Assembly: GCF_000165505.1 (NCBI RefSeq)
Contig: NC_014632.1
Coordinates: 1,364,001-1,428,000, forward strand
Reading direction: 5' to 3'
DNA: 64,000 nucleotides
From: Ilyobacter polytropus DSM 2926
Lineage (GTDB): Bacteria > Fusobacteriota > Fusobacteriia > Fusobacteriales > Fusobacteriaceae
Shown here: piece after piece, positions 6,815-49,516 of the stretch
How the letters are laid out: every line of letters starts with the position of its first letter
Numbering within the stretch: position 1 is the first letter of the stretch
Made by a program: the position numbers and the translations under genes
The notes under the pieces: generated by a model
Databases searched by the model: none
The model's input: only the letters and a program-made list of their open reading frames with translations
What the model was told of the DNA's origin: nothing

Positions 6815-6960
6815 AGGAAATGCTACTGAAACGTCTTTTGTCCCAAAGATCACTCTTTGAATTTGTAACGTTACTGAGGTTGTAACCACCTTCGGAGCAT
6901 CCGCCGAATTTTCGATAACTCCGTTCCTCGTCAGCTTATAAGATCATAAGCTCTGGCGCT
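6815..6960 (-). promoter_or_regulatory. glmS ribozyme (glucosamine-6-phosphate-activated riboswitch)
   Basis: Reading the minus strand from 6960, the RNA begins AGCGCCAGAGC, then a P1 stem (AGCUUAU with AUAAGCU), GACGAGG, a P2 stem CGGAG/CUCCG enclosing UUAUCGA and UUCGGCGGAUGC, then P3 and a P4 hairpin CAAAGAgugaUCUUUG followed by GGGACAAAAGACG. These are the conserved core elements of the class. Self-cleavage is expected between A at 6960 and G at 6959. Binding of glucosamine-6-phosphate triggers cleavage and lowers glmS expression. The downstream boundary is approximate. Confidence 0.95.
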
Positions 6961-7117
6961 TTTTTTATTTTTATTTCCCTCTTGTTGCTTTTATATAGTA
7001 TATTATAATAAATACATACTACATATTTATTGTAACAGAAAAAAAATTTATTTACAATTCAATTTTTCAGCATATCATCAAATCATTTTTTTCAAAAAAA
7101 ACTGAAAAGATTTGTTA

Positions 7118-44583: not shown

Positions 44584-44844
44584 ATGGAAAAAACTATTAA
44601 ATTTAATAAAATAGGAATTAAAAGACGTTTTATTCAATATATCGTTATTCTCCTTATCTCTATCTTTGTTCTCTTTCTAGCTTCTAAGCTAATTGAAAAA
44701 AGAAAACATTCTAAAATAAGGATTTATAACAGTCAAATAGAAAAACTGCAAGATGAAAAACAGAAAAAAATAGATTTAATCGAAAAAGAATATAATGATA
44801 AAATTGAAGCTCTTTTAAACAAAATCGATAAAATCAAAGATTAA
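44584..44844 (+). CDS. Small membrane-anchored coiled-coil protein
   Basis: 86 aa, not recognised. A basic N terminus (KRRFIQ) leads into one membrane helix (YIVILLISIFVLFLASKLI), then a highly charged helix with heptad-like spacing (IEKLQDEKQKKIDLIEKEYN) to the end. By the positive-inside rule the coiled coil would face outward. A good promoter, a ribosome binding site and a following terminator make it a real single-gene unit. Confidence 0.75.
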   Translation: MEKTIKFNKIGIKRRFIQYIVILLISIFVLFLASKLIEKRKHSKIRIYNSQIEKLQDEKQKKIDLIEKEYNDKIEALLNKIDKIKD

Positions 44845-44864: not shown

Positions 44865-44896
44865 GTGGAATATCAAATTTGATATTCCACTTTTTT
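44865..44896 (+). terminator. Terminator of the 86-aa protein gene
   Basis: A near-perfect palindrome: GTGGAATATCAAA pairs with TTTGATATTCCAC (44865-44890), followed by six T. Confidence 0.9.
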
Positions 44897-45143
44897 ATTC
44901 ACATAAAATTCAAACTTGCTATAAATCAAAGATAAGAATTTACTTTTTCTATTTTTATAGAAATTTCCCATCAGGAACTATTCAAAAATTTAATATTATA
45001 TTATTTTCTAAAATCTTATCTGAACTGTATCAGATCCTTATAAATAAAGATATATACTACATTAAACCCCTTAATTCACTCCAATCTATCATTTACACAG
45101 TAAATAGTTAAACAGATAAGACTATATGTCGTAAATATTGTTA
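44897..45143. other. A/T-rich spacer without recognised features
   Basis: Between the terminator at 44896 and the promoter at 45144. A long open frame across it has no ribosome binding site and starts inside the terminator. ATCTGA...TCAGAT can form a small hairpin near 45017-45035. Nothing else seen. Confidence 0.5.
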
Positions 45144-45172
45144 TTGACATATCTACACTATTAATATATAAT
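45144..45172 (+). promoter_or_regulatory. Perfect consensus promoter for the 55-aa protein gene
   Basis: TTGACA (45144-45149), 17 bases, TATAAT (45167-45172). Start of transcription would be near 45179, giving an A/T-rich leader of about 114 bases with one small hairpin (AGTGC with GCACT). Confidence 0.85.
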
Positions 45173-45292
45173 CTTTGTATAGATATACAACATAAATATG
45201 AATTTAAAAATGCAAATAAAAAATTGAAGTGCATTAAAAAGCACTGAATAAAAATTTTATTTTATCATTACTTATTTCAGGGAGGTATTATT

Positions 45293-45460
45293 ATGACATT
45301 AAAAAAAATGAAGAAATCACACGAAATTTTACAGGCTATGTTAATACATGAAAATGGAATCGTATCCCACAGAGGATTTACATCATACGATGAAATTGTC
45401 GCTTATAGGGAAAGAAATAAAAATGACAAAGTAATTTTAGAAGTCGGAACTGAATCATAG
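45293..45460 (+). CDS. Small 55-aa basic cytoplasmic protein
   Basis: Starts ATG at 45293 after a strong CAGGGAGG six to seven bases upstream and ends TAG at 45460. The product begins MTLKKMKKSHEILQ, continues AMLIHENGIVSHRGF, TSYDEIVAYRERNKND, and ends KVILEVGTES. No signal peptide, membrane helix or cysteine. The pattern (short helix, HENGIVSHRGF, YDEIV helix, final strand) looks like a compact folded domain, but I do not recognise it. A perfect promoter upstream and a perfect terminator downstream say that it is made, and probably at a high level. Its shortness explains why it could be missed. Confidence 0.82.
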   Translation: MTLKKMKKSHEILQAMLIHENGIVSHRGFTSYDEIVAYRERNKNDKVILEVGTES

Positions 45461-45480
45461 TTTTTTAAAAACAAAAAATT

Positions 45481-45510
45481 AAGAGCTTATCCTTTAAAGG
45501 ATAAGCTCTT
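45481..45510 (+). terminator. Perfect palindromic terminator, probably bidirectional
   Basis: AAGAGCTTATCC and GGATAAGCTCTT form a 12-bp stem (with TTTAAA as the loop) at 45481-45510, followed by CTTT. On the minus strand TTAATTTTTTG follows, so it can also end nagB. Confidence 0.85.
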
Positions 45511-45569: not shown

Positions 45570-46403
45570 TCAAAAGTAACTTGGAAAAACTTGATTTTTA
45601 ACATACTCCGAAAATTTTTTTATGTCTAAATTATCTTTTTCAAGTTCTTTAAAATAATTTACAGTTTTCACTTTCAGCTCTATCGTAGAAGCTTCATCGC
45701 ATACTATTATAGCTTTTTTATGGACTTGAATTGCTGTAACTGTCCACATATTATTGATATCTCCTTCAATAACCTGCTTTAGAGCCAAAGCTTTTTTCTC
45801 TCCTTTTGCCATTATCAGTACTTCTTTCGAATTCAAGATTGTTCCCACTCCAACAGTAAGAGCTTTTTTAGGAACTTTTGATACATCATTATCAAAAAAT
45901 CTAGAATTTGCCTTTAAGGTTTCTTCAGTCAATGTTATTAACCTTGTTCTTGAATCCAGTGAAGATCCTGGTTCATTAAATGCTATATGTCCATTTGCTC
46001 CTATTCCTCCTATAAATAGATCAATACCTCCATATTTTTTAATCTTTTCCTCATATTCTTCACATTCCTTCATAATATCCATTGCATCCCCATTTAAAAT
46101 GTTTATATTTTCATCTGGGATGTCAATATGCCTAAAGAAATTCTTATGCATAAAGGTATAGTAACTTTGAGGGTGATCTTTAGGAATACCAACATATTCA
46201 TCCATATTAAAAGTTACTACATTTTCGAAAGATACTCTACCCTTTTTATGGAGTTTTATGAGTTCCTTATACATTTTAAGAGGCGTCTCTCCTGTCGGCA
46301 GTCCAAGTACAAAATTCTTGTTGTTATCTGAATAATCATTTATTTTAGATGCTATATATAAAGCTGTCCATTCACTCATTTTATCCGTGACCAAAACTCT
46401 CAT
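45570..46403 (-). CDS. nagB: Glucosamine-6-phosphate deaminase
   Basis: 277 aa. [52 protein letters not shown] and LTVGVGTIL are the family motifs, and length fits the hexameric enzymes. It converts glucosamine-6-phosphate to fructose-6-phosphate and ammonia, the reverse of GlmS metabolism. AAAGGAGGG lies upstream. A small hairpin CCTTCT-TGCT-AGAAGG (46476-46491) in its leader could be an operator. nagA is not nearby. Confidence 0.96.
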
Positions 46404-46517
46404 GTTACCCTCCTTTACATTAAGTTTTTCTGCTATTACCTAAATTAATATACTTTCTATAGACATTACATCCTTCTAGCAAGAAGGTCTGGTCTTATTT
46501 TTTCAACAAACTAAAAA

Positions 46518-46538
46518 GAATTCCCATAAAGGGAATCC
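46518..46538 (-). terminator. Terminator of glpF
   Basis: GGATTCCC and GGGAATTC pair with one G-U around TTTAT, followed by TTTTT on the minus strand. Confidence 0.85.
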
Positions 46539-46554
46539 TTTTCCATTAATTATA

Positions 46555-47274
46555 TCAGTTCCAAATCAGCAGACAGGCACTAAATATTTGCGCTCCTAAA
46601 ACTCCTCCCACAAGAGGAGCAACAACCGGAATCCAAGCATATGCCCAATCTGAATCTCTTTTCCCCTCTATAGGAAGGAGTGTGTGAGCTATTCTCGGAC
46701 CTAAATCTCTGGCTGGATTTATGGCATAACCTGTAGGCCCACCGATACTAAGGCCTATTGACCATACCAAAACACCCACGAGAAGTGCCGCCATAGGCCC
46801 TACGTTATTATTGCTGTTTGTTATCCCCATTATTCCTATCACTAGAACGGCGGTACCTATAGTCTCAGTAACAATGTTCCACTTGGATCCGCTTATGGCA
46901 GGCCCTGTGGAAAAAGTTGCAAGTATCCCATCGGCGTCATCAGTCTCATCATAATGCTGTTTGTAAGAAAGATACACAAGGACAGCACCTGCAAATCCTC
47001 CTGCCACTTGGGAAACTACATAACCTGGAACAAGGGACCAGTCAAAGACACCTATAGAGGCCAAGGCCACAGTCACCGCGGGATTTATGTGAGCTCCACT
47101 TACCCAGCCAGTGACGTATACTGCTACTGTGACACCAAATCCCCATCCTGCAGTGATCGCTATCCATCCCCCGCCATTACCCTTGCTTTTACTCAACACG
47201 ATATTTGCCACAACTCCGTTCCCAAGAAGTATTAATATCATCGTACCTATAAATTCTGCTAAATAAATTCCCAT
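46555..47274 (-). CDS. glpF: Glycerol uptake facilitator (aquaglyceroporin)
   Basis: 239 aa from the ATG at 47274 (CAGGAGG upstream). Six membrane helices and the two half-helix signatures: HINPAVTVAL and GYAINPARDLGPR. The Asp after NPAR is typical of glycerol facilitators rather than water-only channels. It follows the dehydratase reactivase gene and should bring in the glycerol used by the dha enzymes. A hairpin with T-run separates it from the operon upstream, so it may be partly read-through. Confidence 0.94.
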   Translation of the reverse strand: MGIYLAEFIGTMILILLGNGVVANIVLSKSKGNGGGWIAITAGWGFGVTVAVYVTGWVSGAHINPAVTVALASIGVFDWSLVPGYVVSQVAGGFAGAVLVYLSYKQHYDETDDADGILATFSTGPAISGSKWNIVTETIGTAVLVIGIMGITNSNNNVGPMAALLVGVLVWSIGLSIGGPTGYAINPARDLGPRIAHTLLPIEGKRDSDWAYAWIPVVAPLVGGVLGAQIFSACLLIWN

Positions 47275-47315
47275 TTTAACCTCCTGATAATCTTTTATTG
47301 TGTAAATTTTTCCAA

Positions 47316-47366
47316 ATAAAAAACTACACAAAAATAAGTATTTTTCTATACCTTTTATGCGTAGTT
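47316..47366 (-). terminator. Terminator or attenuator between gdrB and glpF
   Basis: On the minus strand AACTACGCA (47366-47358) and TGTGTAGTT (47330-47322) form a 9-bp stem with one G-U, enclosing a 27-base loop, followed by TTTTT. It is 20 bases after the gdrB stop. Confidence 0.65.
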
Positions 47367-47385
47367 TTTATTGACACTATCGTCC

Positions 47386-47712
47386 TTATCTAAGTGGCAG
47401 ACCCTTTACAAGTCTTGCTCCGTTGCTTCCTAAATCTCTCAATTTATTTTTTTCTACAAAAATGTTTGCCTTTTGTATATATTCCTTATCGTACTTCCTT
47501 GTTGTTAGAAGGGCGTCGCCATTTTCTAATACTCCGATACCTATCTCTAGAGTTCCTGAAACATAATTTTCTTTGACAACTTCTTTAGAAGGTACAATTT
47601 TCAGAAGATATGGTATCTCTTCCTCCTCTATACCCCACAAAATTTCATTAATATATTCCCTGTCAATATTATCTGAGCAAAATAATGTTATATTAGGCCT
47701 GTTGTCCATCAT
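47386..47712 (-). CDS. gdrB: Glycerol/diol dehydratase reactivase small subunit
   Basis: 108 aa, DdrB/PduH type. NITLFCSDNIDREYINEILW, GIEEEEIPYL, GTLEIGIGVLENGDALLTT and LGSNGARLVKGLPL are family features. It resembles the beta subunit of the dehydratase and swaps with it during release of damaged cobalamin. It overlaps the large reactivase gene by 20 bases. Two adjacent ATGs offer the start; the second (47709) is better spaced from GGGGGTG. Confidence 0.9.
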   Translation of the reverse strand: MMDNRPNITLFCSDNIDREYINEILWGIEEEEIPYLLKIVPSKEVVKENYVSGTLEIGIGVLENGDALLTTRKYDKEYIQKANIFVEKNKLRDLGSNGARLVKGLPLR

Positions 47713-49516
47713 TCACCCCCATTACAAGTCCAGTGGCTACAGCATTTCTAGGGCCCTCTGTTCCTCTTATATTTCCGCATCCTGCTACTATTCCATACTC
47801 AGATAAAGCTTCAGTTATCATCTGAGATATTTCAAAATCCAATGCAGATCCTCCAACAATAACTACAAATTCAAAATCCCTAATATTTTTTGTATGAGAA
47901 ACTTTCCTTAATGATCTAAGTACATTGGTTATAAAAATTTTTCTTTTGGCAGACCTTCTGATAATTCTGATTTTTTCCAGAGACATATCAAGGTCGATTG
48001 GAATAAGTTCACCTTCTTTTATAAGGACATTTTTAGCAAATACTTTCGGAGAAAGAGAGTTTTCAAAAAATTGAACATTTCCATCCTCGTGTCTTATATA
48101 AAATAGAGATTCTACTTTTGCCAGAGGATATTTTTTTATATCTTCAGCAAGATTAAAATCCTCTATACCCAGCTCTTTTTGAATAAGAAGTGTTGTCATA
48201 TTACCAGCTCCGGCCAGATGAACCAGTTCTTTATTTCCATATCTGTCAATGGAACATGCATCTGTCGAACCTGCTCCTATATCTACAATTACCAGAGGTG
48301 TTCCTGTGCCTGGAGTAGTTAGAGCACCGGTTATAGCCATATCTGCCTCTACTCCTCCTACTTCTACTTTTACTCCCAGTTCTTTTTCAATCTCTTTCGC
48401 TACTTCGGACATTTGATTTTTTTTGGTATTTACCATTGCAGCTATTCCTACAGCATTTTCAAATACAAATTCTTCTGCAATTCCCCCCTTTATCTTTTGT
48501 GGGACAAAGGTATCTACTGCCAATATGTCTTTTATTTTTATATTATCAATGGACTCATTGGTGAAATTCCCCATTACACTTTTTACATTTTTTAGCATTC
48601 CTCCGATATTGGTTCCAGATTCTCCATTTATATCTTGGACATGCTCAATACTTCCCAGGGCTTTCATTATTCTTTTGGAACCCTCTTCTATATTTACACT
48701 TTTTGACCTGTAGTTTCCGTCAATCTGTATCCTTCCAGCAGGGATAACCTTCTCTTTTACATCTCCGTGAGGTGTCTTGATAACTACTCCAGACCTGTTG
48801 CCTATAAGTGCTTTAGAAATAGGAACTATTTTTTTAGTCTCTTCTGAAGTGAGGGAAAAAATTGTGGCAATGCCATATGGATTTGAAATAACCTCTATTA
48901 TTTTTCCCTGTGGAGCTACTTCTACAGCAGCCTTCATCCCTGTAGGTACTTTTTTAACAAAAAGTACCTCATCAACTATGGGGATTTTATTTATGAGTCT
49001 GTTATTTATGAGAACCCCATCATCTTTTTGAATAATAGCACCCTTTATTTTGCATCCATTTTTAAAAGCTTCATTGATTCTGTGAGCTACCTCTAAGAAG
49101 CTGAAACTTTTTTCCACTATTACTATGTAATCTTTATCATTTTCAAAATTTCCAAGCTCTTGGAATAGGATTGTTTCTCCTATCCCAAGACCTATTCCCC
49201 CAGGAGTTGAAGGGTTATGTCCAATCATAGTAGACTCTGTAATTATTGTTTCTGTTATAGTTTCCATAGAAACGTCTCCTATAACAGGAGTAGCTTCATT
49301 TATCCTGATTAAAGATAAATCTGCATTTTTTAAATCAGCTCTTTTCATTGCCTTCTTAATGGCTCTTTTTATTCCCAAAACATTATCTTTAGTACCTTTT
49401 AAACCTGTTGTTTCATGTAAGGCACTGGATAAAAACTTACATTCTATATTGTCTACCTTTGCCAAAGCTACTTCTGTTGTAGCATTTCCAATATCTACAC
49501 CCACTATGATCTTCAT
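47693..49516 (-). CDS. gdrA: Glycerol/diol dehydratase reactivase ATPase large subunit
   Basis: 607 aa, DdrA/PduG/GdrA family with an Hsp70/actin-like ATPase core: VGVDIGNATTEVALA (phosphate 1), LVIVDIGAGSTDACSIDRYG (phosphate 2) and VVIVGGSALDFEI (adenosine site). It uses ATP to expel inactivated cobalamin from the dehydratase. Directly downstream of the small subunit of the dehydratase by 18 bases. Gene names differ between species (dhaF, gdrA, ddrA). Confidence 0.95.
   Translation of the reverse strand: MKIIVGVDIGNATTEVALAKVDNIECKFLSSALHETTGLKGTKDNVLGIKRAIKKAMKRADLKNADLSLIRINEATPVIGDVSMETITETIITESTMIGHNPSTPGGIGLGIGETILFQELGNFENDKDYIVIVEKSFSFLEVAHRINEAFKNGCKIKGAIIQKDDGVLINNRLINKIPIVDEVLFVKKVPTGMKAAVEVAPQGKIIEVISNPYGIATIFSLTSEETKKIVPISKALIGNRSGVVIKTPHGDVKEKVIPAGRIQIDGNYRSKSVNIEEGSKRIMKALGSIEHVQDINGESGTNIGGMLKNVKSVMGNFTNESIDNIKIKDILAVDTFVPQKIKGGIAEEFVFENAVGIAAMVNTKKNQMSEVAKEIEKELGVKVEVGGVEADMAITGALTTPGTGTPLVIVDIGAGSTDACSIDRYGNKELVHLAGAGNMTTLLIQKELGIEDFNLAEDIKKYPLAKVESLFYIRHEDGNVQFFENSLSPKVFAKNVLIKEGELIPIDLDMSLEKIRIIRRSAKRKIFITNVLRSLRKVSHTKNIRDFEFVVIVGGSALDFEISQMITEALSEYGIVAGCGNIRGTEGPRNAVATGLVMGVNDGQQA

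Follow-up and report, generated by a model that had tools for sequence, protein, structure and literature searches.

A 55-codon gene on chromosome I of the Ilyobacter polytropus type strain is a genuine single-gene transcription unit for a lineage-restricted, soluble protein, with its own promoter, Shine-Dalgarno (SD) sequence and terminator and with a reading frame that bears the marks of selection. Annotation often misses small proteins. Here, the promoter, SD sequence, frame, terminator and selection make the gene unusually well supported by sequence alone, and it offers an easy experimental target in a phylum with little small-protein study. Positions refer to the window, that is, the whole 64,000-nt stretch of DNA analyzed, in which the following features were distinguished.

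45118..45143, + strand: A/T-rich block 5' of the -35 hexamer, possible UP element with a TATATNTNNTNAAT core (alignment)
45144..45172, + strand: sigma-70 promoter TTGACA-17-TATAAT, 12/12 match to consensus
45175..45190, no strand assigned: palindrome TTGTAT-AGAT-ATACAA, candidate operator over the expected transcription start (invariance in the genus, uniqueness in the genome)
45179..45292, + strand: untranslated leader, about 114 nt from the presumed transcription start (conservation in the genus)
45278..45285, + strand: SD sequence CAGGGAGG (sequence)
45293..45460, + strand: 55-codon gene for a soluble small protein (purifying selection, invariant residues, AlphaFold2 models)
45481..45510, + strand: intrinsic terminator hairpin with a 13-bp stem and a 4-nt loop (stem), probably bidirectional with nagB

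Conservation and Distribution of the Gene

The frame runs from the ATG at 45293 to the stop codon at 45458-45460. The five homologues, counting the window gene, come from three Ilyobacter species, with one in each, and from Propionigenium maris, which has two paralogues; every one of them is exactly 55 codons long, with no indels. Identity to the window protein is 93-96% in the other two species of the genus and 75% and 60% in the P. maris copies, and 29 of the 55 residues are invariant across the five sequences. The dN/dS ratio (NG86) is 0.05-0.22 in the eight computable pairs; in two more, synonymous change is saturated. Third codon positions carry an excess of changes both in the G000-G002 comparison (11 of 14 changes, P=0.0007) and between the two P. 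maris paralogues (24 of 47 changes, P=0.009). The original prediction described a 55-codon frame, and considered that the frame might not be conserved in relatives or that the RNA alone might be; the frame is present, at 45293-45460, and it is the frame that is conserved in the five sequences, as the low dN/dS and the third-position excess indicate. The gene is almost certainly real and, judging from these substitution patterns, the ORF is protein-coding beyond reasonable doubt.

The gene is present in 4 of 98 Fusobacteriota genomes, representing 2 of 29 genera, the closely related anaerobes Ilyobacter and Propionigenium. A scan of 84,980 species, with a reach of close relatives, returned one true relative, P. 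maris, plus false matches to FtsX. The latter is a 300-aa membrane protein that has YRERNKND in common with the 55-aa protein by chance and is otherwise not homologous to it; these loci (L003-L005), together with a viral locus (L035), were rejected as matches due to the short seed peptide. Weak matches to SMC-like, Der-like GTPase and Ffh-like proteins in other Fusobacteriota were likewise rejected, being chance stretches in large conserved proteins. The codon use of the gene agrees with that of its neighbors, and thus there is no sign of recent foreign origin. A literature search found no paper on this gene. At the level of sequence, its conserved short ORF, purifying selection and limited taxonomic range are those of a lineage-restricted small protein, new as a family and ordinary in kind.

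Transcription and Translation Signals

The TTGACA-17-TATAAT promoter that had been proposed for the gene was found at 45144-45172. Both hexamers and their spacing are kept in the other two species of the genus. Among the Ilyobacter sequences, 26 of the 29 promoter columns and every one of the next 18 bases (18/18) are invariant, a conservation no lower than that of the coding sequence (151/168). Perfect matches to this promoter number three in the window versus 0.05-0.10 expected by chance. The second, at 35740-35712 on the - strand, stands ahead of a gene for a 453-aa RNA-methyltransferase-like protein, and the third, at 41993-41966 on the - strand, lies within rimO. Because the match at 35740-35712 is equally perfect, the signal of the 55-aa gene is not uniquely the strongest, and the initial description of the unit as carrying the strongest expression signals in the window was overstated.

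Of the 26 columns of the A/T-rich block at 45118-45143, only 16 do not vary among the Ilyobacter species; in the alignment, its TATATNTNNTNAAT core is also present in both P. maris copies. A regulon sharing this UP box was rejected (18 genome matches versus 14 in the reversed control), as was one sharing the promoter block, which has no other significant copy (L095-L097 are chance matches).

The invariant bases just 3' of the promoter (columns 45173-45190, three Ilyobacter species) include the 6-4-6 palindrome TTGTATAGATATACAA, which has no second perfect copy anywhere in the genome (3.13 Mb). This palindrome (45175-45190) may be an operator. In the P. maris alignment it is not preserved as a palindrome, which counts against this role. 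A palindrome regulon was rejected, since the other genome sites carry a mismatch and 10 of the 14 inspected fall in long open frames. No regulator acting at the palindrome was identified; the invariant palindrome provides a testable handle on the regulator of the gene.

The SD sequence CAGGGAGG is strong, as it is at the other four loci; AGGGAGG is preserved in four of the five and AGGGGGG stands in the fifth. All five ORFs have a terminator hairpin of their own downstream, which persists while its sequence varies, and the relatives have cleaner U-tracts. On the + strand of the window the hairpin is followed by CTTTCATATG, a mediocre U-tract; a better T-run is found on the - strand, at the nagB side, and therefore the hairpin probably serves both convergent genes. 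Of the 30-base palindromic terminator reported earlier, the hairpin at 45481-45510 is real, whereas the word "perfect" does not suit a mediocre tail.

Predicted Structure and Possible Function

The absence of a signal peptide and membrane helix, noted in the original prediction, agrees with a best 19-residue Kyte-Doolittle mean of 0.43, which corresponds to no hydrophobic segment; the protein is probably soluble and cytosolic. The window member is weakly basic (net charge +0.8, pI 8.1), and the two P. maris copies have pI values of 9.7 and 9.8. The basic N-terminal tail (L3 K4 .. M6 K7 K8) is invariant, as are R27, R39 and R41. AlphaFold2, given the five sequences as input, predicted strands at residues 13-18 and 24-29, a helix at 32-41 and a strand at 46-49, that is, a beta-beta-alpha-beta core (residues 13-49) with a disordered basic N-terminal tail (residues 1-9). 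Structure prediction, initially proposed as a check, gave this core in two divergent members, which are 60% identical and have the same predicted secondary structure (mean pLDDT 76 and 78, core 85-92). A structural search with the AlphaFold2 models (including Foldseek and PDB) produced no significant match. The sequence had not been recognized at first inspection, and family searches (Pfam above cut-off, NCBIfam, PHROGs, PADLOC, PDB) also gave no match.

The best explanation, which we put forward tentatively, is a small accessory or regulatory factor that binds nucleic acid or nucleoprotein and is produced from a strong promoter under repressor control. The TTGACA-17-TATAAT promoter would drive strong transcription, and a repressor, not necessarily encoded nearby, would bind the palindrome over the start site and turn transcription off. 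The product would fold into the compact beta-beta-alpha-beta domain, with the basic tail and R27, R39 and R41 contacting nucleic acid or a nucleoprotein machine such as the ribosome or RNA polymerase, and would act as a small cytosolic accessory or regulatory factor. Because there is neither a homologue of known function nor a significant fold match, the nucleic-acid binding is deduced from charge and conservation only, and the weak basicity of the window member tells against it.

Another scenario is a small regulator that binds protein, inhibiting or adapting one specific enzyme or membrane protein without nucleic-acid contact. Binding of one protein partner is common among characterized bacterial small proteins of this size, which counts in favor of this scenario, as do the compact predicted fold and the many invariant residues; on the other hand, no conserved neighbor gene hints at a partner. 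We regard it as plausible, though somewhat short of an even chance. A function in the nucleic-acid or nucleoprotein class is level with this single-partner alternative and is held with the same reserve. A more far-reaching reading is unlikely. In it, a new protein family, whose beta-beta-alpha-beta fold has no clear equivalent, emerged in the ancestor of Ilyobacter and Propionigenium, is produced abundantly and is controlled by a dedicated repressor at the genome-unique site; if so, the protein would count as a novel small regulator acting on a core machine.

It is improbable that the gene derives from a phage small protein, of the host-takeover or antitoxin-like kind, which the shared ancestor of Ilyobacter and Propionigenium domesticated. 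Such an origin is suggested by a weak resemblance in fold to many phage proteins of 40-65 aa (best E 0.06) and to the phage antitoxin Dmd (E 2-5), and by a weak colinear match of residues 24-51 to residues 24-51 of phrog_5461, a phage family of unknown function and similar length (58 aa), with E 0.12-0.2 against the profile and 0.6-0.9 in the genome search. However, every match is non-significant, the neighbors of the gene are ordinary chromosomal genes, and searches of phage records, plasmid collections and viral contigs, with two degenerate-motif scans of the viral contigs, returned nothing homologous. In a comparison of fold only, the mixed beta/alpha elements of Dmd, the RNA polymerase epsilon subunit YkzG and DdrB are small and comparable in size to those of the 55-aa protein; none of the three has a Foldseek E below 1.7, and none shows sequence similarity to it. 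For a Dmd-like antitoxin, neither the structural nor the sequence searches gave a significant match.

Slightly less probable still is a dual-function or regulatory RNA, with the function in the leader and a secondary role for the small protein. The 114-base leader predicted originally is borne out by the sequence, with a presumed start, and its identity within the genus is 84-87% versus 60-70% in the spacer upstream, as an RNA function would predict. In P. maris, however, most of the leader is unalignable, whereas the protein aligns; folding of the leader shows no excess over shuffles (z = -0.03) and no predicted fold, no Rfam family matches the leader or the unit above the gathering score, and selection clearly acts on codons.

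The likeness of the protein to DUF5673 (PF18923), on whose function a literature search found no paper, consists of a gapless 33-residue match around ENGI...Y.EI..Y. The window member scores 20.2 bits, below the Pfam gathering cut-off of 26.7, and four of the five members match weakly (best E 0.0006). The match covers just profile positions 5-37 of 66, so that half of the domain is missing, and similar scores also come from other proteins across Fusobacteriota. A Fusobacteriota member above the cut-off (L081) has hydrophobic segments before a nearly full-length domain, in contrast to the 55-aa protein, which has no membrane segment; hhalign against its domain gave a probability of 2%, with a single sequence on that side. 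Membership was not accepted, given the score below the cut-off and the half-covered profile, and a DUF5673 remnant or short form is, despite the gapless match, the least probable of the readings considered.

Genomic Context

The Ilyobacter species share the gene order rimO, pnp, 86-aa gene, 55-aa gene but differ in what comes next. The two P. maris copies are located elsewhere and have unrelated neighbors. Standing alone in three different neighborhoods, the gene is therefore an autonomous unit with no fixed operon partner.

The diverged P. maris paralogue (60% identity; L034, 4953-5168) is preceded by a gene for a 158-aa cyclic-nucleotide-binding-like protein and by a 64-aa ORF, and its promoter looks much weaker. 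The 86-aa ORF between pnp and the 55-aa gene (44584-44844) is a small orphan gene with one hydrophobic stretch, a charged coiled-coil-like tail and its own terminator (44865-44890); it is 87-94% conserved in the genus and has no family above cut-off.

The stretch 46278-47877, which begins inside nagB and continues through an aquaporin gene into dehydratase-reactivase genes, matches a second Ilyobacter species (G002) at 99-100% identity, versus 80-87% for the 3' portion of nagB. Identity falls to 0.82 over the final block (47878-48041), which may be an alignment-end effect, and in G001 other genes occupy the place of this stretch. The pattern suggests a recent recombination event whose breakpoint lies within nagB. 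Elsewhere in the window, a glmS ribozyme is found at 6818-6971 on the - strand (Rfam RF00234, 101.8 bits).
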